Both the position numbers and the translations under genes were made by a program. This document shows, one piece after another, positions 5,202 to 31,379 of a stretch of 35,927 nucleotides of DNA. The notes beneath the pieces are model-generated. The model did not search any database. It saw only the letters and a program-made list of their open reading frames with translations, and was not told the DNA's origin. Where the stretch lies: the NCBI GenBank assembly GCA_902779785.1, contig CACZDC010000012.1, forward strand, positions 1-35,927, in the 5' to 3' direction. How positions within the stretch are numbered: the stretch's first letter is position 1; every line of letters starts with the position of its first letter. The stretch is from an uncultured Bacteroidia bacterium (GTDB taxonomy: Bacteria; Bacteroidota; Bacteroidia; Bacteroidales; UBA932).

Positions 5202-5233
5202 ATTATATATACACGAAACAAGTTTGCAAACCC
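5202..5233 (-). promoter_or_regulatory. Candidate ECF-sigma promoter of GH78 (GGG-N16-GTGTATATATAAT)
   Basis: On the minus strand GGG (5233-5231) is followed after 16 bases by GTGTATATATAAT (5214-5202), preceded by C. The 14-base string CGTGTATATATAAT recurs exactly in front of the 24600 gene. The spacing is one base longer than at the other five sites. The spacer contains the palindrome GTTTGCAAAC (5222-5231). Confidence 0.55.
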
Positions 5234-5506
5234 TACCATTGACGACTCAAGATAACTCAGCCCAGCAGGCAAAAGGGCCTGCCAGGCTGAAAGATGAAGA
5301 AAAACGAGAGTCAGATTACTCCGAGTAGGTCTCCTGGGCTACAACGGTGACGGTAATAGGCGCATCGGACCAGCCGCTGAACCATTTCTTTATAAGTATC
5401 CAGGTAAACCCTGGTGAATCCGTTGTCAGACATACATTCGTAAATGTATGCACTATTTGAGACAAAAGCAAATTTTACAACGGAGAGCGGGCAAAGACGG
5501 AGACGC
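5234..5506. other. Gene-poor stretch between FecR and GH78
   Basis: No intact gene is visible on either strand. It holds a 52-codon minus-strand relic frame (5316-5474), a perfect 8-bp hairpin CATACATT-CGTA-AATGTATG (5431-5450), and an imperfect GC-rich hairpin (about 5269-5302) with no T-run on either side. This is a plausible place for the end of the GH3-sigma-FecR message, but no clear terminator is present. Confidence 0.5.
5316..5474 (-). pseudogene. C-terminal gene relic, 52 codons, no start
   Basis: An open minus-strand frame without ATG ends at 5316. Its last part (SDAPITVTVVAQETYSE) reads like the end of a beta-sandwich or Ig-like domain. It follows FecR in the same direction, so it could be the leftover 3' end of a gene once in that operon. 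The frame is short and unrecognised, so chance cannot be excluded. Confidence 0.25.
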
Positions 5507-6505
5507 TCAGGACTTGTCCTTACGTATATACACTTCCTTGCCGTTGATGGTGTACTGGAGCATTGACGAGAAACGTATAAGGTCCAGGACGCGGGTTATG
5601 GATTCCGTGGTAAAGGTTGCTGTCAGACGGTAATTAAGGATGTCTTGGTCCGCGACATGGACATGGACACCGTACCAGCGCTCCAGCTGTTTGATTATTT
5701 CCGGCATCGGAGTATTGTCGAAAACCAGTTCCCCGTTGACCCAGGCGGTGTTTTTCTGGACATTAGCCGCGCGGATGACCGGCTTTTCAATGCTTGTCCC
5801 GGCGCCATCCGAGGCAAGCGAGAGCTTGATTTCCTGCAAAGGTTTCACTTCATGTTCCGAGCCCGTCCTCTCTTCCTTGACGACCACCTTGCCCTCAATG
5901 AGGGTCAGCTTGACGTTCTCGTCGTTTTCATAGGCGGAAAGGTCGAATGTCGTTCCCAGCACTTTGATTACTACGCCTTTGGAAGTATGGATATTCATGG
6001 GCCAGTCATCGTGGTGACGGATGTCAAAGTAACCCTCTCCTGAAAGGTACAACTCTCTCGATGAGGCATTGAAACGGGAAGGGACCGTCAGCGTGGAAGC
6101 CCCGTTTAGCCTTACCGTAGAGCTGTCGGGCAGGACGATGATTCCATTGGTCCCTGGATTGGCGATATAGGTAACATCTCCGCCCCCCTGACGCTGATAA
6201 ACAGCTATTTCGCGGGAAACCTCGGCATACTGCTCAATCACTTGCTTGCGAGACAGATACAAGTACACCACCCCGACCAGAAGAGGAACTGCAATGAGAG
6301 CCGCCAGACTCACTGCAGCGTGACGAAAAAAAGGCTTGCGCTCCGGGAGAATGCGGTTCGGAAAACCCGAAAAAACATACTGCGCACGTAGAGAAGCGAA
6401 GCGCTCCAAATGCTCCGGCGACTCGTTGATCCATTCGACAACCTCCCGGCGCTCACGCTTGCCGGCCTTGTCCATAATATATCTTCTGAGTAGTTTGTCG
6501 TCCAT
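5507..6505 (-). CDS. FecR-family anti-sigma factor
   Basis: This 332-residue inner-membrane anti-sigma regulator would hold the ECF sigma encoded just upstream. The N-terminal cytosolic segment (1-60, MDDKLLRRYIMDKAGKRERR, EVVEWI) is the sigma-binding part. One membrane helix lies at about 64-84 (AAVSLAALIAVPLLVGVVYLY). The periplasmic FecR domain spans about 115-235, with LPDSSTVRLNGASTLTVP, GEGYFDI and IKVLGTTFDLSAY motifs. A DUF4974-type C-terminal domain (about 255-330, VFDNTPMPEIIKQLERWYGV) is the part that contacts the STN domain of transducing SusC proteins. Its ATG shares a base with the sigma stop (TAATG, 6507-6503). All expected domains are present and the length is normal. Confidence 0.93.
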   Translation of the reverse strand: MDDKLLRRYIMDKAGKRERREVVEWINESPEHLERFASLRAQYVFSGFPNRILPERKPFFRHAAVSLAALIAVPLLVGVVYLYLSRKQVIEQYAEVSREIAVYQRQGGGDVTYIANPGTNGIIVLPDSSTVRLNGASTLTVPSRFNASSRELYLSGEGYFDIRHHDDWPMNIHTSKGVVIKVLGTTFDLSAYENDENVKLTLIEGKVVVKEERTGSEHEVKPLQEIKLSLASDGAGTSIEKPVIRAANVQKNTAWVNGELVFDNTPMPEIIKQLERWYGVHVHVADQDILNYRLTATFTTESITRVLDLIRFSSMLQYTINGKEVYIRKDKS

Positions 6506-7119
6506 TATTTTTTGGCGGGATGCACCGCGATGCTATAGTTGTCTGTTCCGATTCTTAGGCGAAGGGCCCTCAATGTAATGCTGATATGATACTCCACAAC
6601 CTTTGTGGAGATGCCGAGGCGCTCTGCTATCTCGTTGTAAGTCAGGCCTTCCTGGCGACTCATCCGGAAAGTGTTCACAACCTTTTCCGGGAGCGAGAGA
6701 TATACCCTGTCGATAAATTCCTGCAATTCCAGAGCGTTGATTTCCTCCTCTACGGAAGGAGAACTCAGGGCCAGGGAGTTAATAAGGGTTTCCGACTCCT
6801 GCAGAGAGCTGTCTTTCATCCGTTTGGCATTGTCTCTGAGGTAGTTGAGGGATTTGTTCCTGGCAATGGTGTAGAGATAGGAGCGGAAATTCCTCATCGG
6901 ATCCAGGCTCTCCCTGCCCTCCCAGATTGCCAGCATAGTCTCCTGTACCAAATCCTCGGCGTCCTGTTTGTTTTTCGTATAACTGTTGACGAAATGGACC
7001 AGATTGGTATATTCCGCCCGGTAAACCGAACGGAACACATCCTCACTCCCCGCCTTGATGGCGAGGGTGATTTCCCGCATTCGTTCCAGTATATCTATTT
7101 GTTGTTCCATCAAACTCAT
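6505..7119 (-). CDS. ECF RNA polymerase sigma factor (FecI-like, sigma-70 family)
   Basis: This 204-residue sigma factor has region 2 at about 22-95 (FRSVYRAEYTNLVHFV, DAEDLVQETMLAIW, FRSYLYTIARNKSLNYLRD) and region 4 at about 140-190 (LPEKVVNTFRMSRQEGLTYN, EIAERLGISTKVVEYHI, helix-turn-helix). I chose the ATG at 7119 because it forms TAATG with the GH3 stop; a frame from 7203 would lie inside GH3, and 7110 is a possible alternative. It is the third-last step of a GH3-sigma-FecR operon whose promoter carries the GGG-N15-GTGTA element, implying positive autoregulation. I propose that it reads the six such promoters in the window. The proposal rests on co-location and the ECF-like layout of the element. 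Confidence 0.93.
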   Translation of the reverse strand: MSLMEQQIDILERMREITLAIKAGSEDVFRSVYRAEYTNLVHFVNSYTKNKQDAEDLVQETMLAIWEGRESLDPMRNFRSYLYTIARNKSLNYLRDNAKRMKDSSLQESETLINSLALSSPSVEEEINALELQEFIDRVYLSLPEKVVNTFRMSRQEGLTYNEIAERLGISTKVVEYHISITLRALRLRIGTDNYSIAVHPAKK

Positions 7120-9263
7120 TATTTGCGGAATCGGCCTTCCAGAAGAGGATTCCGGACATTGGCACCAATCCGGACCAGGTATTGCCCACGGGCTATTTCC
7201 CATTTCCCTTTTTCCTCATTATAAGATGCCAGGGAAGACATCGGTATTTCCAGGCGGACCTGCTCCGACTCGCCGGGGGCAAGAAGAGTCGTTTTCCCGA
7301 ATGCCTTCAACTCCCTCGCCGGCTTATCCAGACCTCTTTCCGGAGCTGAGATGTAAGCTCCATAAGCCTCCCTCCCACTCTTATTTCCGCAGTTTTTAAC
7401 AGCAAAAGAAATGCTTACGCCCTTCCCGGTTTTCTTCACCCTGAAGTTCGAATACTCAAAATCTGTGTAGCTGAGGCCATAACCGAAAGGATAGGACACC
7501 CGGACATTCCGCGTGTCGTAATGCCTGTATCCCACATATATTCCCTCGGAATAGCTGGTCTGGTCGTAGTTTTTGCCTTCTTTCGGGTGATTATAAGGGA
7601 AGTCCATTGCGGAAGGACAGTCAAAATAATCCACGGGGAAAGACAGCGCCAGGCGGCCGGAAGGATTACTCCTCCCGACAAGAAGGTCATAAACCGCGCT
7701 GCCTCCTTCCTGTCCGGGAAGCCAGACGTTAAGGATGGCATCTGGAAGTGATCTCCAACTTTCCACCTCAATTATTCCGGCAATATTCAAAACAACGGCG
7801 ACTTTCTTTCCTTTTGCGTGGAATGCTTCGCAAACATTCTCAATCAGCTTTTTCTCCGTCTCCGAAAGATAGTAATCATCTTCCAGGAAACGGTCAACTC
7901 CTTCCTCAGAAGAGCGTCCGATTGTTATGACGGCATAATCATCACGTTCCGCGACCTTGTCAATAAACGTTCTGGATAAATCCAGCTCAGGAAGCAGCGG
8001 AAGGCCGATACTGACCTTGACTTTTTCGTTGTAAGCGATATCTGCAGAGGCAAAGTCTGCATACTTGAGGTACAAGTCCTGAAGTTCCGCATCCGTCCCG
8101 ACGCCTGCCTCGCTGAAGGCGGTATATATCTGCCGGACATAGGGACAAACCACATAGGCCGAGCCTGAGCCCGTGGCCACAAGTCGATACGAACGGACTC
8201 CGAAGAGCGCCGCCTTTCCGCCTGAAGTCAAGGGTAACATCCCATTGTTCTCCAGGAGTACGGCTGACTCGCAGGCGGCTTTTTTAGATGCCACAGCGCC
8301 CAGGGACAGATCGGGGACGGGGCGCAGTTCGCCGCGGGCTGTCCTGTCGCAGAGCCGGACAATATTGCTGCAGGCCCGGTCAAGGTCTTTGATGTCAATG
8401 CTTCCGTCCTTTACCCCGCCGATTATGTCCTGCATCTGCTTGTCGCTTCCGGGCGTGAAAAAGTCGTTCCCGGCGTGAAGTTGGGCGGCCGTATTATGGT
8501 CGGATATGCTCCAGTCTGTCATTATCAGGCCGTCGAAACCCCACTCTCCCCGCAGTATTCCATTCACCAGATCATGGTTTTCCTGCACCGGCAGGCCGTT
8601 GAGGCTGTTGTATGATGTCATCAGGGACCATGGAGAAGCCTCCTTGACGCAGATTTCGTAGCCCTTGAGGAATATCTCCCGGAGAGCCCTATCCCCGACG
8701 AGGGTGTTTACATGGGAACGGTTTGTTTCCTGATTGTTGCAGGTAAAATGCTTGATACAGGCCGCCACTCCGTTTGCCTGCACTCCGCGGACATAGGCCG
8801 CAGCCATTTTCCCGGCTATCAGCGGATCCTCGGAGAAGTATTCGAAATTCCTGCCGCAGAGCGGATTGCGGATAATGTTCATGCCAGGGGAAAGGAACAC
8901 GTGGATACGATATCCTCTAGCTTCATATCCGGCGGCTGATCCAACCTCCCCTGCAATGCCAGGGTCCCATGACGAGGCCAGAGCCATGTTCGACGGGAAC
9001 GCAGTGGCCTTGTCCGTTTCCCTGCGGCTCAGACGGACTCCGGAAGAGCCATCGGCCAAAGCCAGAGTCGGGATATTGTAGGCTGGGAAGGGCGCTGTCC
9101 TGGCGCAGATTCCTTTATTGGTAGGAGGAAAATCCTCTCGCTTGATTCCGACGACACACCTGGCCTTCTCTTCAAGCGACATTCTGTCAACCTGGGCCTG
9201 CGCCACTGCGGGCAGCATGGCCACCAAGACGAGACACAGCGGAAATATGACTTTTACCCTCAT
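7119..9263 (-). CDS. GH3 family beta-glucosidase-like glycoside hydrolase, secreted
   Basis: This 714-residue protein has a signal peptide (MRVKVIFPLCLVLVAMLPAV, AQAQ) and the three-domain GH3 layout. A TIM barrel occupies about 25-330, with KHFTCNNQETNRSHVN and the nucleophile Asp250 in IMTDWSISDH. An alpha/beta sandwich covers about 340-570 and contains the acid/base candidates Glu453/Glu454 in GRSSEEGVDR. A C-terminal Fn3-like domain covers about 610-710, with YPFGYGLSYTDFEY and GREAYGAYISAP. It would release terminal beta-linked glucose or a related sugar from oligosaccharides in the periplasm. It is the first gene of the operon that also encodes the sigma factor and FecR, an unusual arrangement that ties enzyme level to regulator level. 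The start follows the ECF-like element by few bases. The GH3 family is certain; the sugar specificity is inferred. Confidence 0.93.
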   Translation of the reverse strand: MRVKVIFPLCLVLVAMLPAVAQAQVDRMSLEEKARCVVGIKREDFPPTNKGICARTAPFPAYNIPTLALADGSSGVRLSRRETDKATAFPSNMALASSWDPGIAGEVGSAAGYEARGYRIHVFLSPGMNIIRNPLCGRNFEYFSEDPLIAGKMAAAYVRGVQANGVAACIKHFTCNNQETNRSHVNTLVGDRALREIFLKGYEICVKEASPWSLMTSYNSLNGLPVQENHDLVNGILRGEWGFDGLIMTDWSISDHNTAAQLHAGNDFFTPGSDKQMQDIIGGVKDGSIDIKDLDRACSNIVRLCDRTARGELRPVPDLSLGAVASKKAACESAVLLENNGMLPLTSGGKAALFGVRSYRLVATGSGSAYVVCPYVRQIYTAFSEAGVGTDAELQDLYLKYADFASADIAYNEKVKVSIGLPLLPELDLSRTFIDKVAERDDYAVITIGRSSEEGVDRFLEDDYYLSETEKKLIENVCEAFHAKGKKVAVVLNIAGIIEVESWRSLPDAILNVWLPGQEGGSAVYDLLVGRSNPSGRLALSFPVDYFDCPSAMDFPYNHPKEGKNYDQTSYSEGIYVGYRHYDTRNVRVSYPFGYGLSYTDFEYSNFRVKKTGKGVSISFAVKNCGNKSGREAYGAYISAPERGLDKPARELKAFGKTTLLAPGESEQVRLEIPMSSLASYNEEKGKWEIARGQYLVRIGANVRNPLLEGRFRK

Positions 9264-9268
9264 ACAGA

Positions 9269-9295
9269 ATAATACACCTATTCGGGGCTTTTCCC
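9269..9295 (-). promoter_or_regulatory. Candidate ECF-sigma promoter of GH3-sigma-FecR (GGG-N15-GTGTATTAT)
   Basis: On the minus strand GGG (9295-9293), in an ATTAAGGGAA context, is followed after 15 bases by GTGTATTAT (9277-9269). The ATG lies at 9263, so the leader would be absent or only a few bases. With the opposing SusC promoter it forms a perfect 9-bp inverted repeat (9269-9277 and 9303-9311) centred in the 73-base divergent gap. Confidence 0.6.
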
Positions 9296-9311
9296 TTAAT
9301 TAGTGTATTAT
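9284..9311 (+). promoter_or_regulatory. Candidate ECF-sigma promoter of susC-susD-phosphatase (GGGG-N15-GTGTATTAT)
   Basis: GGGG (9284-9287) is followed after 15 bases by GTGTATTAT (9303-9311); the ATG at 9337 is 25 bases further on. The -35-like elements of the two divergent promoters interleave, so polymerases probably compete for this gap. Confidence 0.6.
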
Positions 9312-9336
9312 GTAGGAATAGATTTATATATAGAGT

Positions 9337-12300
9337 ATGACTCCATTACGAAAAGCAATCGCCGTACTGCTCCTGCTGCTCGGATCAGTCCTCGCGGGCG
9401 CGCAGACGATTTCCGTGGACTATGATTCCGTCAAACTGAGCCAAGCCCTTTCGGACATCCAGAAACAATCAGGATACAGTTTCGTGTACAACAACTCCCT
9501 AGTGGACGTGGAGACCCCTGTCAGCGCAAAGGTAGATGGTGATATTCGCCACATACTGGACGCCGTCCTGTCCGGACTGCCCATAAGCTATGAAATCCTT
9601 GACCAGCAGATTACCCTGAGCCCAAAGAAAGTCAGGGAAGAGCCGAAAAAGGTTACAGTCTCCGGAGTCATCACTGACGATTCCGGCGCGCCTCTGCCAG
9701 GAGTCATAGTTCAAGAAAAAGGGAGCATGAACGTCAGCATGACAGACCTCGACGGCAAATACTCCCTTACGCTGAATCTGGGAGCCCTTTTCACCGTCAA
9801 CTGCATGGGTTTCAAGGAACAGGAATTCGCGGCGCCCCGCGGTGGAGGAAAAATGGACATAAAGCTCGAATCAGACATTAATTACCTTGACGAGGTAGTC
9901 ATTGTCGGCTACGGTGTGCAGAAAAGGGCGAACCTGACAGGCGCCGTATCCTCCATCAATTTCAGCGAAGGGCTGGAATCCAGGCCCATAACCTCCACAT
10001 CCACCGCCCTTGCCGGCCTCGCTCCCGGCCTTGCCGTCACCCAGACCTCGGGGCAGCCAGGTGATGACGGAGCTACCCTCCGCATCCGCGGCAACACCAC
10101 CCTCAACACCAACAGCCCTCTGGTGCTCGTCGACGGAATCGAATATTCCATGGACAACATCAACCCCCAGGATATCGAAACCATCACCGTCCTGAAAGAC
10201 GCTTCATCGACCGCAATTTACGGTTCCCGTGCTGCAAACGGCGTCATACTGATTACCACCAAGGGAGGGACCGAGGGGAAGATCCATGTCTCCTACAGCA
10301 ACAACCTGACCCTCCAGATGCCCTATCTCGGAGGCCTGGAATATGTCACTGACTATGCCGAATCCATGAGGCTGGTCAACGAAGGCGCCGACAATATCGG
10401 CATTGCCCATGTTTATTCGGACCAGACGATCGCGCTCTGGGAAAACGCCAAGGAGCACCCGGACGAACTTAACGCCTACGGGGTGAAGAACAGCATCGCT
10501 TATCCCAATACCGACTGGTTCAAGGAAGCCTTCCACAATGGCTTCCTGCAGAAGCACAACATCTCCTTCTCCGGCGGTACCGAAAAGGTGAAGGCCTATG
10601 CCTCGGCGGGGTTCCTGGACAACCGGGGCGTGATGAGCCACCACGGGATGAACAGCGGAACTACCAAGTTTGACATCCGCACGAATGTGGAAATAAAGTT
10701 TTCCAACTGGCTCACCGCCGGCGCAAAACTCTTCGGAGAGCGCCAGGATTACGGCATGATGGACCTCTCGTCCGGATTCCAGTATCTCAAGATGACCATC
10801 CCGGGCATGTATCCCGGCGAGCCGGACAAATGGGGCTACATCGCCACGAACGAAGAGAACGCCAACGCGAACAATATTTTCAAAAACATGGCGTCCCGCG
10901 ACGGCGAAAAATACACCTACAGGGGTTCTGCTTCCGCTTTCCTCAAGGCACAGATTTTCAAGGGGCTCTCCTTCGAAGTCAACGCCAACCACAACTTCAC
11001 CCACGGCTACGAGCACAAATACACCGCCTCCGCGAGGATTTGGAACTACGTCTCCGACACCGTTCAGAAAGAAACGGCACTTAACACCGCCTCCAACACA
11101 ATCAGCGTTTCCGACAATTTCCGCACCAACGGAGAAGCCCTGCTCCGCTACAACGGAGTTTTCGGCAAACATGAAATCGGAGCACTTGCAGGTTATTCCG
11201 TCAACTATTACATCGCGCCCTGGAGCAATGTTTCCAAGGAAGGGAAAAGCGACTGGGCCATTACCGAACTCTCGGCATACACCAACCTGATTGACTCCGA
11301 CAGCGGCAATTCGGAATGGGGACTGATGTCCGGTTTCGGCCGCGTCAACTATGCCTATGACGGCAAATACCTGCTGGAAGCCAACATCCGCTACGATGGT
11401 TCTTCCCGTTTCGCGCCGGAGTCCAGATGGGGCCTCTTCCCTTCCTTCTCCGCCGGCTGGCGAATCAGCGAGGAGCCTTGGATGAAGGGCACCAAGTCCT
11501 GGATGGACAATCTTAAAATCCGCGGCTCCTGGGGCGTTACCGGAAACAACAATTCCGGAAACTACGCCTGGCAGAGCACCTATACTACCCATGACGTCGT
11601 TTCCGGCGGAGTTGAGACCTCCGCACTCACGGTAACAGCAATCGGCAACCGTCAGCTTGAGTGGGAGACGACAAAGACCGGAGACATCGGTTTGGATTTC
11701 GGCTTCCTCGGGAACCGCCTCACCGGTGAGATCGACGCCTACATCCGCAACACCAGCGGCATTCTCTTCAGGCCTACCATCCATCTGACCATGGGCACCG
11801 TAACCGCCCCTTACGAAAACCTCGCCGCAGTCCAGAACAAGGGACTGGAACTCGGACTCAAATGGAGGGACGGAATCGGCAAGGATTTCAGCTATTCCGC
11901 AGGCCTGAACCTTGCCTACAACATAACCACGGTAAAAAAATACAAGGGCAAGCTGGTCCAGGAGTGGCAGGAGGACGAACAAGGCGATCGTGTCTATGTC
12001 AACAACATAGGCGATGTGGCCCAGAGCGGCTTCGGCGGCTATATTGTAGAGGACCATATCCTCGGCGACCAGTATATGCGCAGCCTCTACAGTGGGACCG
12101 GAGCCGGCTATTCCGGTGAAGGCGACGTGGACATAAACGCCGGACCGGTGGACGGCATGATCCGGACGGAGAACGACATGAACTGGCTCATCGCCATGAT
12201 AACTGCCGGCTACAAGTTCCAGGGCGGTCAGAGGATTTCAAAGAACACGCTCTACTACGGAGACTTCATCTATGCCGACCTCAACGGGGACGGCGACTAC

Positions 12301-12813
12301 GGCGATGAAAATGACAAACACTTCACAGGACACAGCTACACGCCCAAGTTCACCGCCGGCCTCAACATCAACATGCGCTGGAAGAACCTGGACTTCTACG
12401 CCCTGCTGACCGGAGCCTTCGGATTCTACCTGAACTGGAACACCAGCGTGTACAACACCACCCTGGTCAACCAGGCCCAGGCCATAATGCGCAGGATAGC
12501 CGACAACCATTACAGCAGTGAGAATCCAAACGGTACCTATCCGAGGCTCACCTACAACAAGACGCTCAACGACTCTCTTTGCGAGTTCTACCATTACCGG
12601 GGCGACTACGTCAAGGTGAAAAGCCTGCAGCTGGGCTACACCCTGCCCAAGGCATGGATGGAGAAAATCCATGTGGACTCTTTCCGAGTCTTTGTCAACG
12701 GGGACAATCTGTTCACCTTCACCTCCTATCCCGGGCAGGATCCGGAAAAGGGCACTTCAGTAGGCTATCCGCTGATGAGAAGCATAAGCGGGGGTATCCA
12801 GTTGAACTTCTAA
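9337..12813 (+). CDS. SusC-like TonB-dependent outer-membrane transporter with STN signalling domain
   Basis: This 1158-residue protein imports glycan fragments across the outer membrane using TonB energy. After the signal peptide (MTPLRKAIAVLLLLLGSVLA, GAQ) comes an STN domain (about 25-95, LSQALSDIQKQSGYSFVYNN), then a carboxypeptidase-regulatory-like domain (about 105-180, SGVITDDSGAPLPGVIV, TDLDGKYSL). The plug covers about 185-310 (LDEVVIVGYGVQKRANLTGA, LRIRGNTTLN, VLVDGIEY, IETITVLKDASSTAIYGSRA). The barrel runs to the end and closes with an aromatic terminal residue (GGIQLNF). The STN extension is known to pass substrate signals to FecR proteins, which fits the adjacent sigma/FecR genes. 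It heads a three-gene operon, with SusD 12 bases downstream. It looks intact. Confidence 0.97.
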   Translation: MTPLRKAIAVLLLLLGSVLAGAQTISVDYDSVKLSQALSDIQKQSGYSFVYNNSLVDVETPVSAKVDGDIRHILDAVLSGLPISYEILDQQITLSPKKVREEPKKVTVSGVITDDSGAPLPGVIVQEKGSMNVSMTDLDGKYSLTLNLGALFTVNCMGFKEQEFAAPRGGGKMDIKLESDINYLDEVVIVGYGVQKRANLTGAVSSINFSEGLESRPITSTSTALAGLAPGLAVTQTSGQPGDDGATLRIRGNTTLNTNSPLVLVDGIEYSMDNINPQDIETITVLKDASSTAIYGSRAANGVILITTKGGTEGKIHVSYSNNLTLQMPYLGGLEYVTDYAESMRLVNEGADNIGIAHVYSDQTIALWENAKEHPDELNAYGVKNSIAYPNTDWFKEAFHNGFLQKHNISFSGGTEKVKAYASAGFLDNRGVMSHHGMNSGTTKFDIRTNVEIKFSNWLTAGAKLFGERQDYGMMDLSSGFQYLKMTIPGMYPGEPDKWGYIATNEENANANNIFKNMASRDGEKYTYRGSASAFLKAQIFKGLSFEVNANHNFTHGYEHKYTASARIWNYVSDTVQKETALNTASNTISVSDNFRTNGEALLRYNGVFGKHEIGALAGYSVNYYIAPWSNVSKEGKSDWAITELSAYTNLIDSDSGNSEWGLMSGFGRVNYAYDGKYLLEANIRYDGSSRFAPESRWGLFPSFSAGWRISEEPWMKGTKSWMDNLKIRGSWGVTGNNNSGNYAWQSTYTTHDVVSGGVETSALTVTAIGNRQLEWETTKTGDIGLDFGFLGNRLTGEIDAYIRNTSGILFRPTIHLTMGTVTAPYENLAAVQNKGLELGLKWRDGIGKDFSYSAGLNLAYNITTVKKYKGKLVQEWQEDEQGDRVYVNNIGDVAQSGFGGYIVEDHILGDQYMRSLYSGTGAGYSGEGDVDINAGPVDGMIRTENDMNWLIAMITAGYKFQGGQRISKNTLYYGDFIYADLNGDGDYGDENDKHFTGHSYTPKFTAGLNINMRWKNLDFYALLTGAFGFYLNWNTSVYNTTLVNQAQAIMRRIADNHYSSENPNGTYPRLTYNKTLNDSLCEFYHYRGDYVKVKSLQLGYTLPKAWMEKIHVDSFRVFVNGDNLFTFTSYPGQDPEKGTSVGYPLMRSISGGIQLNF

Positions 12814-12825
12814 ATCGCTTCGACC

Positions 12826-14730
12826 ATGAAAAAGCACATCATATTTTCAGCGCTTGGAATAATCCTCCTCAGCTCTTGTGTAGGAATTCTTGACACCGCT
12901 CCGAGGAGCCAGATTTCCGACGGCAACATGTGGACTACGCCCAACCTTTCGCGGGCCGGAGTGGACGGACTGATGCAGACCCTCTACAGGCATATAGACG
13001 GTCTCAGCACCATCATCCCCGGCGACGGCACCGGAGGGCTCAACAGGATAGGCATGGAAGGCATGGGCTATACCAGCATACTCGACGCCGGCAGCAACGT
13101 GGCTTTTCTGAGGGCAGCCACGAAAACCGCGTCCGGCAGAGAAAATTCCGAAGAATGGAAAAGCATGTACCAGACCATCCACGCCTGCAACAGGGCAATT
13201 GCCCATCTTGACAGGAGCGTGGTCGGCGACGCCCTTTACGAGCAGTACATCTGTGAGGCCAAAATGATCAGAGCCTTCTGCTATACCCGCCTAACCATGA
13301 TCTTCGGGGAAGTCCCGGTCTATCTGGAAGAGGTGGACGACGTCAACTGCACCAAGGGCCAGAGTTCCTGGGACGAGTGCTGGGCAATGATTATCAATGA
13401 ATGCAATGAATGCATTGAGAACGCAGGCTTCCAGACAAACAATTTCTCCGGAGAACGGCTATGCAAGCCTTCCAAGGGCATGGCCTATGCCCTCAGGGGG
13501 AATGCCTATATGTGGCTTGCCGCAGACAAGAACCCGGAGATTTATCCCGACGGAAAGAGCATCGGTGTGGCCAAGGCAAAGGAGTATTATGGTTTGGCAG
13601 CCGCCGATTTTGCAAAGGTCAAGGAATGCGGCTTCGGGCTCTGGACAGGGAAGTGGGAAGACTTCTACAGCTATAAAAATGAGCACAACATCGAGATGAT
13701 CTTCCCCATGGAATTCACCTTTACTGATAACTTCTGCTCTATCTGGCAGTGGGTCATAGGCGCAAGGTCCCACCTGAACAGCTGGACCAGGCTTGTCCCT
13801 TCCGCAGATTATGTGGATGATTTCCAGTGGGCGGACGGCAGGGAGTTCAAATGGAATGAAGTCTTTACGGACTGGAACAAACTCACGGCAAAGAAACGCG
13901 AGGTGTTTTTCCTAAGGGACTCTCTGTTTGCCTACAGGGACTCCGTCATTAAGGGAACAACAGTAGAAAAATATATTGCCCTCAACGGCGAACTTGAGAA
14001 AGTAATCAGCCGTGTAGGAGAAGAAACCCTTAACGATTATTATATTAATATTGGTAACGAGGCGCGGCTTCGCTCGGCATTCGACGGACGCGACCCCCGC
14101 CTTGACAAATCCGTAGTCACTCCCTATAAGAAATATAAATTCATCAACGAGAATTCCGTCAACGCCATTGATTTCCAACTTCGCTGGCCACGTTTCAAGC
14201 GGCAGGATGATGTGGACGATTCCGACCTCTTCCCTGAATTCGCATCCAACATGGTCTATCTCTGGAACAAGGGAATCGTCAATGACGGGAGCACTATCGA
14301 CAGGGTAAGAGACGGAACAGACTGGCCCCTTATCCGTTTCACTGAGATCCAGCTCCTCTGGGCCGAAGCGCTTGTCGGCGCGGGCCGGGTCAATGAGGCT
14401 ATTCCTCTAGTGAATGAAATCCGCTCAAGGGGAGGAATGCCGGACGTCAGCGGCACAAGCCCCGAAGAAGTACTCGAGACCATACGCTACGAAACCCGGG
14501 TGGAACTCGGCCTGGAAGGTAAAGACTTCTTCAATGAAATCCGTTGGGGGACATTCAAGGAAACCAAGTTCCAGGGCAATGATTTCTGGGACCCGCAGTC
14601 ATGCTGGGGACTCGGAGGCTGGAAGACCGGATACTATTATGTCGAGCACATGTGGCCTCTCAGCGCTCCCCTGGACGAAATCCTTATGAACGCCAACCTG
14701 AAGCGCCGTCCCTGGTGCTGGACCTACTAA
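12826..14730 (+). CDS. SusD/RagB-family nutrient-binding outer-membrane lipoprotein
   Basis: This 634-residue lipoprotein (signal MKKHIIFSALGIILLSSC, Cys18) forms the lid of the SusC transporter and captures oligosaccharides at the cell surface. The N-terminal SusD-like motif begins right after the lipobox (LDTAPRSQISDGNMWTT). TPR-like helices follow (YQTIHACNRAIAHLD, EQYICEAKMIRAFCY, KGMAYALRGNAYMWLA), and the C-terminal RagB/SusD segment has WPLIRFTEIQLLWAEAL, EAIPLVNEIRSRGG and RYETRVELGLEGKDFFNEIR. The length is slightly above the family mean. It is paired with SusC and followed after six bases by a phosphatase-like lipoprotein. Confidence 0.96.
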   Translation: MKKHIIFSALGIILLSSCVGILDTAPRSQISDGNMWTTPNLSRAGVDGLMQTLYRHIDGLSTIIPGDGTGGLNRIGMEGMGYTSILDAGSNVAFLRAATKTASGRENSEEWKSMYQTIHACNRAIAHLDRSVVGDALYEQYICEAKMIRAFCYTRLTMIFGEVPVYLEEVDDVNCTKGQSSWDECWAMIINECNECIENAGFQTNNFSGERLCKPSKGMAYALRGNAYMWLAADKNPEIYPDGKSIGVAKAKEYYGLAAADFAKVKECGFGLWTGKWEDFYSYKNEHNIEMIFPMEFTFTDNFCSIWQWVIGARSHLNSWTRLVPSADYVDDFQWADGREFKWNEVFTDWNKLTAKKREVFFLRDSLFAYRDSVIKGTTVEKYIALNGELEKVISRVGEETLNDYYINIGNEARLRSAFDGRDPRLDKSVVTPYKKYKFINENSVNAIDFQLRWPRFKRQDDVDDSDLFPEFASNMVYLWNKGIVNDGSTIDRVRDGTDWPLIRFTEIQLLWAEALVGAGRVNEAIPLVNEIRSRGGMPDVSGTSPEEVLETIRYETRVELGLEGKDFFNEIRWGTFKETKFQGNDFWDPQSCWGLGGWKTGYYYVEHMWPLSAPLDEILMNANLKRRPWCWTY

Positions 14731-14736
14731 CCCACA

Positions 14737-17613: not shown

Positions 17614-17618
17614 ACTGA

Positions 17619-17626
17619 CCTCCTTT
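17619..17626 (-). promoter_or_regulatory. Strong Shine-Dalgarno site (AAAGGAGG) before paralogue A
   Basis: AAAGGAGG on the minus strand ends five bases before the ATG at 17613, at near-ideal spacing, and abuts the stop codon of the 67-residue lipoprotein. No other gene in the window has such a site, which is expected for Bacteroidota. It decides the start and may secure re-initiation inside the operon. Confidence 0.7.
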
Positions 17627-17830
17627 CTATTCATCCCAATCAGTAGGGCCGTCATCGACAAAGCCTGCAGGGGCGGCATTGTTGGATGTTATCTCACTTA
17701 CAGGTCCCGGAGGAGTGGTGTTCCCATTACCGTTTCCGTTGTCCGGCTCTTCTGGGTTGTTTTTCGGAGTGCAGGCGGCTCCCGCGAGAGCGACCATCAC
17801 TGCGACTAGAATCAAATACAATTTTTTCAT
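17627..17830 (-). CDS. 67-residue lipoprotein with acidic tail, unknown function
   Basis: A short gene lies between the phosphoesterase fusion (25 bases upstream) and paralogue A (13 bases downstream) in one operon. The signal peptide MKKLYLILVAVMVALAGAAC has a clean lipobox (Cys20). The mature part of 47 residues is a low-complexity linker (PEEPDNGNGNGNTTPPGP) with a strongly acidic end (FVDDGPTDWDE). It has no predicted fold and no recognised family. Being lipid-anchored, flexible and acidic, it could be a small surface tether or binding partner of the two large lipoproteins; that is speculation. The intact signal and operon spacing support a real gene. Confidence 0.65.
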   Translation of the reverse strand: MKKLYLILVAVMVALAGAACTPKNNPEEPDNGNGNGNTTPPGPVSEITSNNAAPAGFVDDGPTDWDE

Positions 17831-17855
17831 AATCTTATGTGTTTGTTGTTATCAA

Positions 17856-20800: not shown

Positions 20801-21074
20801 CGGAAGCCGTCGCCGTGAAGGTCACCGGAGTAACTGTGCTTCCGTTGATTTCCAGGGCGAGGAAAGTATCACCGGTCTTCCATCCGGCCTTGATTCCGCC
20901 CGCTCCCTCCTCGTAAACCATCTTTGTGCGGGATTCCGGCAATGACGCCGTTGCCGTGATAATCACCTCTTCGCCGGAAATAGTATCTATTTGTTCCCTG
21001 ACACAAGAAAGAGAAAGGGCCAGAATGACAGCCGCAGTCAGGGAATAAGTGGTTATTTGCTCCATTACACGCAT
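17856..21074 (-). CDS. Surface lipoprotein: fimbrillin-like + FISUMP + calcineurin-like metallophosphoesterase (paralogue B)
   Basis: This protein of about 1072 residues has these parts in order: lipoprotein signal (MRVMEQITTYSLTAAVILAL, SLSC); fimbrillin-like region about 30-310; FISUMP-like module about 315-555 (WAPFNVG near 320, WRMP near 402, YSVRPVL); Ig-like MetallophosN domain about 560-625 (GRVTDAVSGKGIAGVTVSDG); metallophosphoesterase about 632-850; MetallophosC about 870-1030. The metal-binding motifs are complete: DAH at 639, GDQLSN, GNHDHE at 712, FCTHAP and GHLH at 832. It would hydrolyse phosphomonoesters or diesters at the cell surface. Start codons at 21080, 21074 and 21065 are possible; 21074 supplies an Arg to the signal peptide and matches the leader spacing of other promoters here. 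The frame open upstream to 21311 covers the promoter and a relic and is not coding for this protein. The C-terminus ends SPSLTEDTSF. Confidence 0.88.
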   Translation of the reverse strand: MRVMEQITTYSLTAAVILALSLSCVREQIDTISGEEVIITATASLPESRTKMVYEEGAGGIKAGWKTGDTFLALEINGSTVTPVTFTATASADVKASFVSSGAVEANSSTRWVAVLGKGASFNDGSISCSYAGQDGSLSGLEKCDYMVATSSGDTPDFNYGNGKHLTYVLRIKMPEGVGAMEFNTWAEGPEWSVGSDGSVKGCTADYRPAAAKLFQFAKETAAGENAYLAVPAVDYSDAGLIVTAFNSAGTQSQGKVLSADLSAKGGRVGTYEMDALIDRPLPEDALNFLTQLSCSLHFINNSSWDGLTDKYNFSTSPSWAPFNVGAKASPSTAEEAYGSYFAWGETEQRASYSHSSYKHDGKDGTMGYTRSHPGQKDIRLDLKVISGTKYDVARVKWGSAWRMPFLEEMLTFTGDNEIFSCSSGRTASTANTFKTIDVSEYKGVAVNGRTFSRNGVTVFFPFSGRYYYTEGSEAAAPSLVGKAGFYFGGVHNITAGRSDAYRLYVRGNQVDVLAEGCEFAYSVRPVLAQETDEPGKAIASGRVTDAVSGKGIAGVTVSDGYTCCSTDADGAYQMNADTRARYIAVTIPAAYEIPLGEDGRPAFYKLVDFSYGGETVADFSLTPRKEALSAFSLITVADAHVQTEDQLEMFKNGPFADIQKTVKKLESSGPVIGIALGDQLSNDISVSAAVREVYTGVKLSSGVMPFFYVIGNHDHEPVAGGTDDQSTDSFLHNFGPTDYSFDIGNAHIVVMDDIQFNGSTEGGSSGEHIKYSEGINGEQLHWLKEDMALVKDKANKVVLFCTHAPIYNPIMNVGEVKSMLNDFNEAHVFSGHLHNLTNYSHRAYKSLNGKPIFEHNMQSLSGQIWIADVSANGSPAGYGVYTFSGSSLSWEYNKTWKENENFQIRVYSGNDDYSGYSWDSEYRGKFLARVWDGDDPETAAGDETWTLNFIHNGESVPMTRLKKAIIDQCADSYYVETLHSRFGNWSKTSYTWWVIDAPGGDPAAVKNWKITATHKLPGKEKTYTESILSRDYTGYGVGTRFLWSIDENELDPGSNPDGGAVSPSLTEDTSF

Positions 21075-21078
21075 ACAC

Positions 21079-21106
21079 ATTATACACGCGAAGGGCACAT
21101 TCCCCC
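21079..21106 (-). promoter_or_regulatory. Candidate ECF-sigma promoter of the paralogue B operon (GGGG-N15-GTGTATAAT)
   Basis: On the minus strand a run of five G (21106-21102) precedes CGTGTATAAT; counting from the first four G the spacer is 15 bases, as at the other sites. GTGTATAAT occupies 21087-21079 and overlaps the first possible ATG, so the message is probably leaderless or uses a later ATG. Confidence 0.6.
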
Positions 21107-21130
21107 GAAAGACTTGGCGCGGGGATGCTG

Positions 21131-21373
<243 letters not shown>

Positions 21374-21425
21374 TTAAAGAAGATCCGCCACGGGACCAGA
21401 ATTATGTAGCCTTAAATTATTTAAG

Positions 21426-21457
21426 TTTGAATAATTGAGGAATAATTATTATATTTG
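21426..21457 (+). promoter_or_regulatory. Housekeeping (sigma-ABfr type) promoter of the AAA ATPase gene
   Basis: TTTG (21426-21429), 20 bases, then TATATTTG (21450-21457): an exact fit to the Bacteroides consensus. The ATG lies 17 bases further on. The gene is thus set apart from the ECF-type regulon around it. Confidence 0.8.
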
Positions 21458-21474
21458 CAGCAAAGATTGATGTT

Positions 21475-22608
21475 ATGCAACTGCCCAATCCATTCATTAT
21501 CACAGCAGACTATATGGGCCCTGAGTACTTTTGTGACAGGCTTGACGAAACAAAGGTCCTTGAAAACAACATCAGAAACGGCCGGAATACCGTTTTAATT
21601 TCCTCAAGGAGGATGGGGAAGTCGGGGCTGATCGCACACGTCTTCAATCAGGAGTATGTGAGTAAGAGTTACAGGACTTTTTCTGTGGATATTTATCCCA
21701 CCTCTTCTTTGGCAGAGATGGTTTTTTTGCTTGCAAAGGAAATAGCCGGGCCACTGAAAAGTAAAGAAGAAAGATTTCTTGAATCGTTTCTTACCATTGT
21801 AAAATCGCTCAGGTTGGGATTCAAAATGGATTCTGTCACAGGTCGTTTAGTATTTGACCTTTCTCTGGGAGAAATAATCAAACCGGCAGAAACGCTTTCT
21901 GAGATATTCACCTATCTTGAAGCAAGTGAATCCCCATGTGTTGTGGCCATGGATGAGTTTCAGCAGATTGCCGAATATCCGGAGAAGAATGTAATAGAAC
22001 TCCTGCGTTCGCACGTCCAAAAATGCAGGAAAACCTGGTTCGTTTTTGCAGGAAGCAACAGAAGGATGATGGAAAAGCTTTTTAACAACCCATCTGAACC
22101 ATTCTACATGAGTTGCTCCCCTTTATATTTGGAGGCCATACCATACGACAGTTACCTTTCTTTTGCCAATCATCACTTTGAGGCAGCAGGTAAAAAAATC
22201 CGGGAAGACTGTTTTAAATCTGTATACGACTTGTTTGAGGGGCACACATGGTACGTTCAGAGAATACTGAACGAATTATATGCATGGACCAATAAAGGAG
22301 ATGAAGCGACAGAGCAATTGATGAGGGAAGTGCTTACCTATGTGATTAATACATATGCCCGTACTTTCCAGGAACAGATAAGTGTAGTCCCGGAAGCTCA
22401 GAAGCAACTGATGATCGCAATTGCAAAAGAAGAGAATGCCGAACAGGTAACATCTATCGCCTTCTGCAAAAAACACTCACTGAAAAGCCCAAGTACAGTA
22501 CAAAGTGCCCTCCGTGTCTTGCATGACAAGGGGACGGTCAGCAGGAAGGGCAATACCTATTCCATAACAAACAGGCTGTTGAGAATCTGGCTGGTCCGGG
22601 AATATTAA
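21475..22608 (+). CDS. AAA ATPase with C-terminal winged helix (archaeal-type ATPase family)
   Basis: This 377-residue cytosolic P-loop ATPase has a Walker A-like motif SSRRMGKSGL at about 43-52 (the first glycine of the canonical motif is absent, as usual in this family), Walker B VVAMDEFQQI with Asp160-Glu161, and sensor-type VFAGSNRRMM near 196. A C-terminal winged-helix segment lies at about 320-377 (QKQLMIAIAKEENAEQVTSI, SPSTVQSALRVLHDKGTV). Such genes occur in many copies in Bacteroidota and archaea, and their role is poorly known. Base composition is visibly more AT-rich than the flanking genes, and it has its own housekeeping promoter, so it looks like an insertion into the PUL rather than part of it. 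No signal peptide. It ends at a terminator hairpin shared with the convergent gene. Confidence 0.85.
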   Translation: MQLPNPFIITADYMGPEYFCDRLDETKVLENNIRNGRNTVLISSRRMGKSGLIAHVFNQEYVSKSYRTFSVDIYPTSSLAEMVFLLAKEIAGPLKSKEERFLESFLTIVKSLRLGFKMDSVTGRLVFDLSLGEIIKPAETLSEIFTYLEASESPCVVAMDEFQQIAEYPEKNVIELLRSHVQKCRKTWFVFAGSNRRMMEKLFNNPSEPFYMSCSPLYLEAIPYDSYLSFANHHFEAAGKKIREDCFKSVYDLFEGHTWYVQRILNELYAWTNKGDEATEQLMREVLTYVINTYARTFQEQISVVPEAQKQLMIAIAKEENAEQVTSIAFCKKHSLKSPSTVQSALRVLHDKGTVSRKGNTYSITNRLLRIWLVREY

Positions 22609-22610
22609 AA

Positions 22611-22640
22611 CGCCCCGGGACCGGTGAGGGCCGCGGGGCG
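22611..22640 (-). terminator. Hairpin terminator between convergent genes
   Basis: CGCCCCG (22611-22617) pairs with CGGGGCG (22634-22640). On the minus strand the hairpin is followed by TTTT (22610-22607), giving a rho-independent-like terminator for the FISUMP gene. On the plus strand it directly follows the ATPase stop but lacks a T-run. Confidence 0.65.
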
Positions 22641-22663
22641 GTTGTAAGAAACAAAGGTCTCTA

Positions 22664-24328
22664 CTACTCTACCGTAATAGACGTAGATGCGAGGACAGCC
22701 CTCACGGGAACAGCGCGCTCCCTCCATGTCTTTCCATCCCACCAGTCCCAGTCGGTGCCGTCCGACACATGTCCCATCATCATGGCTGCAGCATAGCCTG
22801 GTAAGTTGCATTTCCTGTTTTGCTGGGTAGCTGTCCAGAAACAAGCACAATCGTACGTCAACTGCTTACCATTGGAGCCAGGTGTAGGTCTTTGAGGATT
22901 AGCATAACCTTTGGTTTTCCAGTTTGAACGGAAGATGGTAATGCTGTTGCCTGTGCCATTGCTTGTCATCGTCCAGGTATCAGATGTAAGGCTATATGTT
23001 GAGTTCTGTGCAGTTGCTGAGGCTTCGGGGAAATTAGGCATTCTCCAAGCCGATCCCCACAATACTCGGGCCGCATCATACCTTGACTGTTGGATTGTGA
23101 AGAACGACGAACTCTTGCTGCCCAAGCCCTGATATTGCAAGACCGAAATGGTGTTGTACGCGTCATACGTGCTATTGCTGATTGTAATGGCGTCTGAACC
23201 TGATGCGAATGCATAGTTTGAATAGGCCGGGCTGCCTCCAGAATCCTCTACCTCACCCCATTGGAAATAATAACCGGCTTCTGCAGCGCTTGTCGCTCCT
23301 ACGTTGTACGGAGCCCAATAAACTGCGCCACTGGCATTGAATGTGGGATTACTAGTACGGTTATAGGATGCCGTCATCTCGATTGCCTGAGCAGGTGTCG
23401 GCCTGGAAATCATCTCAGTGGCCGTGCAGTCCAGGGTCTTAATCTGGCCACCCTTGGTCGAAAGATCGTTGCCGATAACCATACCCCATGATTGCGTAGC
23501 TTCAGCGGAAGTGTTGTTAAGGAAGGTGAGTATAACGCCCCCTTTCAAGTTTCCGTCCTCATACGGCGACGTCCCGTATGGATATCTGTTAAACTTGTAG
23601 TTGATTGCAGGAAGGGCCAGATAAACGATATCACCGGCAGAAGCAGCCGCACTGAGCGAGATCGTGGAGGTATTTGCCGGCAACCATGCTGCATATGCGG
23701 ACCCATCCGTGCTATTCTCTGCATACACTGATGAAGTGTAATGGACTTCGCTAATTTCAGCAGAAGTAACCTTCCAATATATACACGGGGTATATTCGAT
23801 ACACTTGGTGCCTGCCGGGACTTTGATGCGTACAATATAAGACAGGGCTGTACCATTCGCAAAGTCAAATGACGGCGTGACGCCAGTGCTAGTGGCTTGC
23901 ACATAGTTGAACTTATTCAGATTGGCAATTGAACCGTTCTGGCTCTGGTACCCGCAATGGATTTCGGCGCCATGAACAGACGCATTCTTGCCAAGGACAG
24001 CCACCCATTCTGTAGAAGAGGTAACGCCTTCGGCTTCAGCAGTAAATGTCGCAGTTGTATTGCCGGCACCGGAAGCGAGCGTGAAGGTTACGACAGTGCT
24101 TCCGTCCTGAATAGCATAGAACTTGTCGCCGTCTTCCCAGACCGAACTTATGCCGGCGCCGCCGCCGGGAGTATTCTCAGAGTACGCTACCTTAGTAGCG
24201 CAGTTCACAGTCGCGGTGATGATCTGCTTCCCCTCAGGCTGCGCGGAAGCTTCCTTCTGGATATCCTTCTCCTTTTCGCAGGCGCAAAAGACTGCGAGGA
24301 TAGCTATGGATGTAAGTATTTTCTTCAT
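22664..24328 (-). CDS. Fimbrillin-like/FISUMP surface lipoprotein (paralogue C)
   Basis: This 554-residue lipoprotein (MKKILTSIAILAVFCAC, Cys17) has the same two-part plan as paralogue A. The fimbrillin-like region covers about 30-320 (SVWEDGDKFYAIQDGSTV, WVAVLGKNASVHG, CGYQSQNGSIANLNKFNYV, YLALPAINYKF, STKGGQIKTLD). The FISUMP-like module starts at WAPYNVG near 338 and includes YYFQWGEVED, RYDAARVLWGSAWRMP (Trp at 428) and a final AVPVRAVLA. It is more Ser/Thr/Asn-rich and more divergent than A, B and D, and lacks the phosphoesterase part. I start it at 24328, where the lipobox signal begins; the frame from 24346 adds six residues across the preceding ORF's stop. It is preceded on the same strand by a 43-codon ORF that carries the promoter. 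The role is probably surface glycan or matrix binding, by inference. Confidence 0.78.
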   Translation of the reverse strand: MKKILTSIAILAVFCACEKEKDIQKEASAQPEGKQIITATVNCATKVAYSENTPGGGAGISSVWEDGDKFYAIQDGSTVVTFTLASGAGNTTATFTAEAEGVTSSTEWVAVLGKNASVHGAEIHCGYQSQNGSIANLNKFNYVQATSTGVTPSFDFANGTALSYIVRIKVPAGTKCIEYTPCIYWKVTSAEISEVHYTSSVYAENSTDGSAYAAWLPANTSTISLSAAASAGDIVYLALPAINYKFNRYPYGTSPYEDGNLKGGVILTFLNNTSAEATQSWGMVIGNDLSTKGGQIKTLDCTATEMISRPTPAQAIEMTASYNRTSNPTFNASGAVYWAPYNVGATSAAEAGYYFQWGEVEDSGGSPAYSNYAFASGSDAITISNSTYDAYNTISVLQYQGLGSKSSSFFTIQQSRYDAARVLWGSAWRMPNFPEASATAQNSTYSLTSDTWTMTSNGTGNSITIFRSNWKTKGYANPQRPTPGSNGKQLTYDCACFWTATQQNRKCNLPGYAAAMMMGHVSDGTDWDWWDGKTWRERAVPVRAVLASTSITVE

Positions 24329-24349
24329 AACGATACTGTTTTGCAATTA

Positions 24350-24481
24350 CTAATAGTTGGAGAATTCGGTATCGTCATCCTCTCCGATGCCCGGAGAAGT
24401 GCTCGAGCCGCTTACGACGAAGTTCTCTTCGAACCTCAACCAGGTTGATGTTGTTTTGGGTTCAGAATATTCTTTTCTCAT
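24350..24481 (-). CDS. 43-codon ORF resembling the C-terminal tail of paralogue B; remnant or microprotein
   Basis: The frame starts at the ATG at 24481, 20 bases after a GTGTATAATT element, and ends 21 bases before paralogue C. It has no signal peptide. Its second half (STWLRFEENFVVSGSSTSPG, IGEDDDTEFSNY) can be aligned with the last residues of paralogue B (FLWSIDENELDPGSNPDGGA, VSPSLTEDTSF): W-x-[I/F]-[D/E]-E-N, then S-P-x-[I/L]-x-E-D and T-x-F at the end. The 21074 operon has a B-type protein upstream of an A-type protein. Here only the B-type tail remains upstream of C. I read it as the 3' remnant of a deleted fusion gene, but it could be translated. Confidence 0.45.
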   Translation of the reverse strand: MRKEYSEPKTTSTWLRFEENFVVSGSSTSPGIGEDDDTEFSNY

Positions 24482-24501
24482 AAAAAAACATTTTTACCAT
24501 A

Positions 24502-24529
24502 ATTATACACAGAAGTTCGGATACTCCCC
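24502..24529 (-). promoter_or_regulatory. Candidate ECF-sigma promoter of the 24481/paralogue C unit (GGGG-N15-GTGTATAAT)
   Basis: On the minus strand GGGG (24529-24526), in a TTTCGGGG context, then 15 bases, then GTGTATAAT (24510-24502). It is divergent from the 24600 promoter within a 118-base gap. Confidence 0.6.
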
Positions 24530-24547
24530 GAAAAAAGTCGGAATTAA

Positions 24548-24578
24548 GGGAAGAAACCTACTTACGTGTATATATAAT
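24548..24578 (+). promoter_or_regulatory. Candidate ECF-sigma promoter of the 24600 operon (GGG-N15-GTGTATATATAAT)
   Basis: GGG (24548-24550), in an AATTAAGGGAA context shared with the GH3 promoter, then 15 bases, then GTGTATATATAAT (24566-24578). The -10 string including the preceding C is identical over 14 bases to that of GH78. The ATG is 21 bases downstream. Confidence 0.6.
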
Positions 24579-27920: not shown

Positions 27921-27931
27921 GCCTCCGGCCT

Positions 27932-29470: not shown

Positions 29471-29471
29471 T

Positions 29472-31373: not shown

Positions 31374-31379
31374 CACGCG

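Follow-up and report, generated by a model that had tools for sequence, protein, structure and literature searches.

Which promoters a sigma factor reads is a question raised by any polysaccharide utilization locus (PUL) that encodes a sigma factor of its own. We addressed it for a stretch of 35,927 nucleotides from an uncultured Bacteroidia bacterium (hereafter, the window), which makes up nearly all of contig C12 (36,724 bases) in a draft genome of 2.78 Mb. Six transcription units in the window are preceded by a two-box element, GGG-N15/16-GTGTAT, which a first-pass annotation had proposed to be the promoter of the local extracytoplasmic function (ECF) sigma factor. Because the element is conserved at orthologous loci, clusters before the same genes in eight genomes, emerges from an unbiased dyad search and covaries in its -10 box with a residue in region 2.4 of the sigma factor, it is very probably the promoter of this sigma class, and the proposal was supported. 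We consider it highly likely that the FecI-type ECF sigma factor whose gene lies at 7110-6505 uses all six copies as promoters. The sites, their conservation, their genomic clustering and the covariation were all established by computation.

The six sites were recovered at the positions and on the strands originally reported. The spacer between GGG and GTGTAT measures 15 bases at 9295-, 9285+, 21105-, 24528- and 24548+ (signs denote strands) and 16 bases at 5233-. As also reported, AATTAAGGGAA is common to two sites and TTCGGGG to three, while the remark that the second box is usually preceded by C was correct for three sites and incorrect for the other three. With gene starts taken as the first ATGs, GTGTAT lies 7-28 nt before an in-frame ATG at five sites, which agrees with the earlier description of all sites as lying just upstream of start codons; the 24505 site departs from it, as the likely ATG of the lipoprotein gene follows only after 176 nt. 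The layout is that of an ECF-type promoter, with two boxes at a fixed spacing just upstream of sigma-linked genes. The earlier statement that other units look different also held: TTTG-N17-23-TAnnTTTG occurs in the window only before the ATPase unit (21426-21457+) and at 282-251-, and at none of the six sites, and the glycoside hydrolase (GH) family 92 gene has a TAnnTTTG box at 333-340+.

Dinucleotide shuffles of the window (n = 300) gave a mean of 0.15 sites and a maximum of 2, against the six observed. All six fall outside the 16 genes taken as coding, in a window whose non-coding share is 6.1%. In the whole genome, GGGN15GTGTATWW occurs five times, always in this window; allowing N16 brings in the GH78 site plus two off-window sites, and six of the eight distinct sites therefore lie in the window. 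As the motif was read off these six sites, the chance and genome-count figures are post hoc, and the independent tests come from relatives.

Eleven orthologues of the sigma factor were found, at 76-85% identity. The site precedes the GH3 gene, the first of the sigma unit, in all nine orthologous loci that cover its start (L036-L039, L041-L045), consisting of GGG, N15 (N16 in L045) and GTGTAT, or GTGTAC in L037 and L041, and ending 8-10 nt before the GH3 start in each. Locus L037 ends 74 bases before GH3 and L040 starts inside it. SusC is divergent from GH3 in six of the eight orthologues with DNA upstream of GH3 (L036, L041-L045; not L038 or L039), and a site faces SusC in all six, with a spacer of 15 or 16, although L045 has only GG and GTGTAC. 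At these promoters the boxes were kept, while spacers and surroundings diverged.

The eight genomes reached through the orthologous loci contain 31 exact GGGN15GTGTATWW sites, of which 30 were examined. Sixteen are followed 8-34 nt later by a homologue of GH3 (5), SusC (5) or the metallophosphoesterase lipoproteins (6). Half of these sixteen repeat sites already seen at the orthologous loci; the other eight are outside the loci obtained from the sigma search and comprise all six lipoprotein sites plus the SusC sites in L399 and L402. A TTGTAT control in the same genomes plus the window's own placed none of 20 sites before such homologues. The first-pass annotation had proposed an enrichment scan with a position matrix. 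When this was done with the pattern instead, raw counts were at background, yet more than half of the strict hits in sigma-bearing genomes precede regulon genes, which leaves the proposal standing.

A wider class of sites was observed around distant FecI-type sigma factors. The first sample comprised 60 loci in genomes of the window's family, including two in the window genome itself; their sigma factors are about 27-48% identical to that of the window over the aligned part. In the SusC upstream regions of the window, the orthologues and these loci, GGG-N14-16-GTGTA was present in 20 of 70 (shuffle mean 0.13); the opposite strand gave 7 matches, and divergent promoters also lie there. The same pattern was found in 6 of 74 FecR regions and in none of 79 sigma regions, where a looser form reached 4 of 79. 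As the 70 SusC regions include some near-identical or repeated sequences (e.g. L090/L125 and L086/L087), they were thinned to 64 for an unbiased trimer-tetramer dyad search. GGG-N16-TGTA ranked first, in 20 of the 64 regions, against at most 14 for the best dyad of block shuffles; some AT-rich dyads also exceeded the shuffles (17 versus a maximum of 14). Among the remaining 47 regions, GGG-N15-TTGT tied for first place with 11, which only equals the shuffle maximum. The -10 variants at the family loci include GTGTA, TTGTA, CTGTA and TGTGC, among others.

The second sample comprised 80 loci drawn from 36 genomes, each belonging to another family within the order. Here the unbiased search recovered GGG-N16-TGT in 24 of the 80 regions upstream of FecR (expected, 1.3), with no enrichment in the sigma upstream regions of these families. 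The idea of a universal SusC promoter was dropped, since in the other families SusC regions were not enriched and the signal lay before FecR. The shared form of the site class is (A/G)GGG-N15/16-xTGTy, in which x and y vary. In the SusC upstream regions of L128, L135 and L145, TTAGGG or ATAGGG is followed at similar spacing by GTCTT, which lacks TGT and may be a further -10 variant within the class.

The bases x and y were then related to the sigma factors. SusC and FecR promoters of one locus matched in 23 of 26 comparisons of x and y (14.9 when shuffled, P = 0.00015), tested on the 13 loci with a confident site at both genes after removal of a duplicate L134 entry. For the covariation analysis, each of about 170 columns of 60 aligned sigma factors was compared with each -10 base. 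There were 64 sigma factors with a site, 56 of them passing a site score of 3.5; nine labels (window, L037, L038, L041, L042, L045, L087, L088, L092) were added by hand from sites already printed, and five second-sigma rows (L134|9, L160|10, L111|13, L101|3, L113|30) were left out. The score is simple and favours x = G and x = T equally. The strongest association of base x was with residue 92 (z = 22.6, against 9.1 for the runner-up column). This residue is the Arg of the region 2.4 sequence NYLR and aligns to the V of NYLV in E. coli sigma-E (1or7); the names of sigma regions were placed by alignment. Arg92 went with G in 28 of 32 cases and Lys92 with T in 19 of 21. For y, columns 61, 82, 71 and 70 scored best; they fall within or close to region 2.3, L3 and region 2.4. 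According to PMC8103513, L3 reads a single flipped-out -10 base. Ala, Ser or Thr at residue 61 accompanied y = A in 34 of 35 cases, and Lys, Gln, His, Tyr, Glu or Arg mostly y = C. Single columns alone stand out, as enrichment across residues 57-95 as a whole was not significant (P 0.31 for x, 0.19 for y).

This rule was discovered on the 60 sigma factors themselves, five of which are near-identical (L094, L096-L099). A later set was scored with the same site score after the discovery: 75 new sigma factors, from 137 with a focal sigma among 149 loci, none sharing more than 75% identity with the first set or with another new member. For 22 of them, a site called with confidence lies downstream of the sigma gene; the opposite strand gave none. 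Arg again accompanied G (9 of 11) and Lys accompanied T (6 of 7), giving an Arg/Lys by G/T table of 9/0/0/6 (P = 0.0002), and residue 61 Ala, Ser or Thr accompanied y = A in 5 of 5. On a tree of all 82 sigma factors, path-disjoint Arg/Lys contrasts averaged 8.6 in the same direction, 0.0 in the opposite direction and 1.5 without difference over 200 pairings. Among these 82, Asp, Glu, Asn or Ser at residue 92 accompanied C in 6 of 10. The -10 sequence thus tracks residues of sigma region 2, as in ECF promoters, and Arg92 and Ala61 of the window sigma factor correspond to G and A, hence GTGTA, matching its own sites. This residue-base covariation is the strongest reason for calling the element a sigma promoter. 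In the Bacteroidales, and in some other sampled Bacteroidota, we lean towards a general rule whereby PUL-type FecI sigma factors share AGGG-N15/16-xTGTy, with a constant -35 and a -10 that separates loci, residue 92 setting x and residues around 61-71 (region 2.3/L3) setting y. If this is true, the promoters, and hence the regulons, of many PUL sigma factors could be predicted from sequence. The motif is derived from conservation and tied to a single sigma residue, which also makes a one-residue, one-base swap testable.

Several observations weigh against assigning the element to this sigma factor and its class. One orthologue, L046 (on a 6.9-kb contig), has no such site, and there is no GH3 match in the 1 kb before its sigma gene. 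Of four paralogous sigma loci scanned in the window's own genome, only L137 showed a plausible FecR site. In the other families, the SusC upstream regions (80 loci, 73 regions) were without motif enrichment, and confident sites just downstream were limited to those 22 of the 75 new sigma factors. Across 149 genomes, AGGG-N15-GTGTAT was not visibly commoner in raw counts than its reversed control, and the pattern alone is therefore no predictor. Exceptions to the residue rule among the 82 sigma factors comprise Arg with T (3), A (2) and C (1), and Lys with G (1) and C (2). A few random pairings in the first set held one contrary pair, and only three independent contrasts fall on strongly supported branches, too few for a test. 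The genomes are mostly drafts, many of them metagenome-assembled, and the loci are not independent, a weakness that the tree contrasts mend only in part.

Other explanations of the element were considered against the same evidence. The site could be a feature of the sigma class that paralogous ECF sigma factors of the same genome also use, in which case the six units would not form a private regulon. This is an unlikely alternative, though the most serious one: the genome has ten TIGR02985 matches, and the FecR promoter of paralogue L137 (C7), GGG-N15-GTGTTC, is similar. That site nevertheless differs in base y, while sites of one locus mostly share both x and y, and the strict sites are nearly confined to the locus studied here. 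It is quite improbable that the two boxes are instead the binding site of a separate activator or repressor. The divergent pairs do form operator-like inverted repeats such as TAATACAC-N25-GTGTATTA, but each half is directed, has nearly fixed spacing and points at a gene start, and other loci carry single sites. The covariation, moreover, is with sigma region 2.4, and no regulator resembling a hybrid two-component system (HTCS) or SusR was detected among the 16 large window genes scanned against Pfam. That the sites are chance occurrences or housekeeping sigma-A promoters has hardly any probability left; the AT-rich -10 box has TATAAT-like letters, but the retention of sites in relatives and the empty TTGTAT control contradict it, and the shuffle expectation and the absence of TTTG-N17-23-TAnnTTTG from the six sites speak against it as well.

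The gene setting is summarized in Table 1. The window sigma factor matches TIGR02985 at 145.3 bits, above the cut-off of 126.4, and both regions 2 and 4 are present (Pfam Sigma70_r2 and Sigma70_r4_2). GH3, sigma and FecR lie on one strand, from which SusC, SusD and a tyrosine-phosphatase-like gene diverge. The arrangement is that of FecI-FecR surface signalling, with a sigma gene adjoined by FecR and a TonB-dependent partner carrying an STN domain. The shared strand and the gap of 8 nt between GH3 and sigma point to a GH3-sigma-FecR operon.

Table 1. Genes and candidate promoter sites of the sigma-linked locus, in window coordinates.
Feature	Position	Strand	Remarks
ECF sigma factor, TIGR02985 Sig70_bacteroi1 (Bacteroidetes FecI-like)	6505..7110	-	Arg92 codon 6835-6837, Ala61 codon 6928-6930
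FecR-type anti-sigma factor	5507..6505	-	FecR and FecR_C Pfam matches; adjoins sigma
GH3, first gene of sigma-FecR unit	7119..9263	-	
SusC with STN (signalling) domain	9337..12813	+	STN match
SusD	12826..14730	+	
GH78 alpha-L-rhamnosidase	2586..5201	-	
Site before GH78	5202..5233	-	GGG-N16-GTGTATATATAAT; ATG 7 nt past GTGTAT
Site before GH3-sigma-FecR unit	9269..9295	-	GGG-N15-GTGTATTAT; ATG 8 nt past GTGTAT; kept in orthologues
Site before SusC-SusD-phosphatase	9284..9311	+	GGG(G)-N15-GTGTATTAT; interleaved with divergent GH3 site
Site before metallophosphoesterase lipoprotein unit (ATG 21074 or 21065, to 15925)	21079..21106	-	Also before homologue in L388
Site upstream of lipoprotein gene 24328-22664	24502..24529	-	176-nt leader, short open reading frame
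Site before unit 24600-35711 (lipoprotein/metallophosphoesterase, metallophosphoesterase, heparinase-like, GH2/GH88-like)	24548..24578	+	Site type also before homologue in L394, L395, L397, L401, L410

From these sequences we infer how binding, transcription start, operon structure and induction by substrate may fit together. Region 4 of the sigma factor would read (A/G)GGG as the -35 box and region 2 would read xTGTy as the -10 box, the spacer from GGG to x measuring 15-16 bases; in the window sigma factor, Arg92 would select x = G and Ala61 y = A. Substrate would engage the STN-bearing SusC, upon which FecR would free the sigma factor. The freed sigma factor would then start GH78, GH3-sigma-FecR, SusC-SusD, the two divergent lipoprotein units and the metallophosphoesterase unit. 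Positive feedback on the sigma factor is likely, because its gene lies downstream of a site in the GH3 unit, and self-amplification of the sigma factor, as suggested earlier, would follow from the order of GH3, sigma and FecR behind one site. As sigma and FecR are both in this unit, the switch would amplify its own brake as well.

Two features of the promoters themselves were observed. At 9269-9311, the divergent promoters are interleaved, each GGG lying within the spacer of the other and about 25 bp separating the -10 boxes, so that two polymerases could probably not bind simultaneously. The pair is interleaved in the same way in L044 (5171-5207) and L045 (7803-7840) and is separated in L036, L041, L042 and L043. 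An ATG follows GTGTAT after 7-10 nt before GH78 (5214-5199), GH3 (9277-9261) and one metallophosphoesterase lipoprotein gene (21087-21072), the lipoprotein distance being 7 nt as at GH78. Should transcription begin at the usual distance, these messages are expected to be nearly leaderless, and 5' untranslated regions below 10 nt are uncommon in B. thetaiotaomicron, at about 3.7% (PMC7366714).

FecI/FecR/FecA-type signalling and its PUL version are known systems, and the window shares with them a sigma factor, FecR and an STN-bearing SusC, while sites of the same class precede FecR or SusC elsewhere. What appears to be new is the promoter motif for PUL FecI-type sigma factors and the association of -10 base x with residue 92. 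Todor et al. in 2020 reportedly matched residues of sigma regions 2 and 4 to promoter bases by covariation (cited in PMC8103513 and PMC11588781). The approach is the same and the results may overlap; that analysis was built on autoregulated ECF sigma factors, as described in PMC8103513, whereas the loci studied here mostly have the site before FecR or SusC instead of sigma. PMC8103513 counts FecI-like systems as exceptions to positive autoregulation, and the rarity of sites before sigma genes in the sampled loci is in line with this; the window differs in that its sigma gene lies downstream of GH3 and a site. Classical ECF promoters have AAC at -35 and CGT at -10 (PMC8103513). Like the present element, they consist of two boxes, contain GT in the -10 and vary there at a single base, which fits one-base reading by L3; here the -35 is AGGG, and TGT is preceded by an additional base, x, that follows residue 92.

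Bacteroidales genomes have tens of ECF sigma factors, many within PULs; B. thetaiotaomicron has 50, nearly half of them in PULs (PMC12596196). Predicting ECF promoters in the Bacteroidales was described in a 2013 regulon study as challenging and as requiring transcription starts (PMC3878776), and, according to a map from 2020, none of the ECF sigma factors of B. thetaiotaomicron had a known motif at that time (PMC7366714). In the excerpts searched, no promoter motif for PUL FecI-type sigma factors was found apart from a possible overlap with the 2020 covariation study, the nearest being a non-significant TGTT-bearing motif near -10 for SigW-1, an ECF sigma factor from a different group with an effect on part of PUL59 (PMC12596196). 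PM2 of B. thetaiotaomicron is near-palindromic, has -10 and -30 boxes and is tied to oxidative stress (PMC7366714, PMC12596196). Compared by description, PM2 and the SigW-1/SigH-1 promoters resemble the present sites as alternative-sigma promoters in Bacteroidales, with TGTT near -10 for SigW-1. The CGT-box motif SM6 of Flavobacterium psychrophilum, tied to type IX secretion genes and low nutrients (PMC9723704), likewise has, by its description, two boxes and a GT-containing -10. In PUL24 of B. thetaiotaomicron, which has an ECF sigma factor, two transcript ends were mapped, at 17 nt ahead of BT1871 and at 291 nt ahead of BT1875, the latter within the end of BT1876; one of the two has no housekeeping consensus before it (PMC11501099).

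Further observations concern the edges of the proposed regulon. The leader at 24505-24328 contains a 12-codon open reading frame (MVKMFFYEKRIF) that begins 4 nt past GTGTAT. The ATPase gene (21426-22608), with its own TTTG-N-TAnnTTTG site, sits between regulon units and is perhaps an insertion. One off-window site, in C36, was set aside as it lies within a long frame. The other, TCAGGG-N16-GTGTAT (G000:C56:19140-19166; L228, L232), precedes by 22 nt a gene that shares 44% identity with the GH88-like end of 31380-35711 and is a possible distant member of the regulon. In L387 and L395 (G744:C50:9892-9963), a divergent site pair precedes two lipoprotein-like genes, one of them judged by eye and one homologous to 24600-27920, and mirrors the window pair at 24502-24578.

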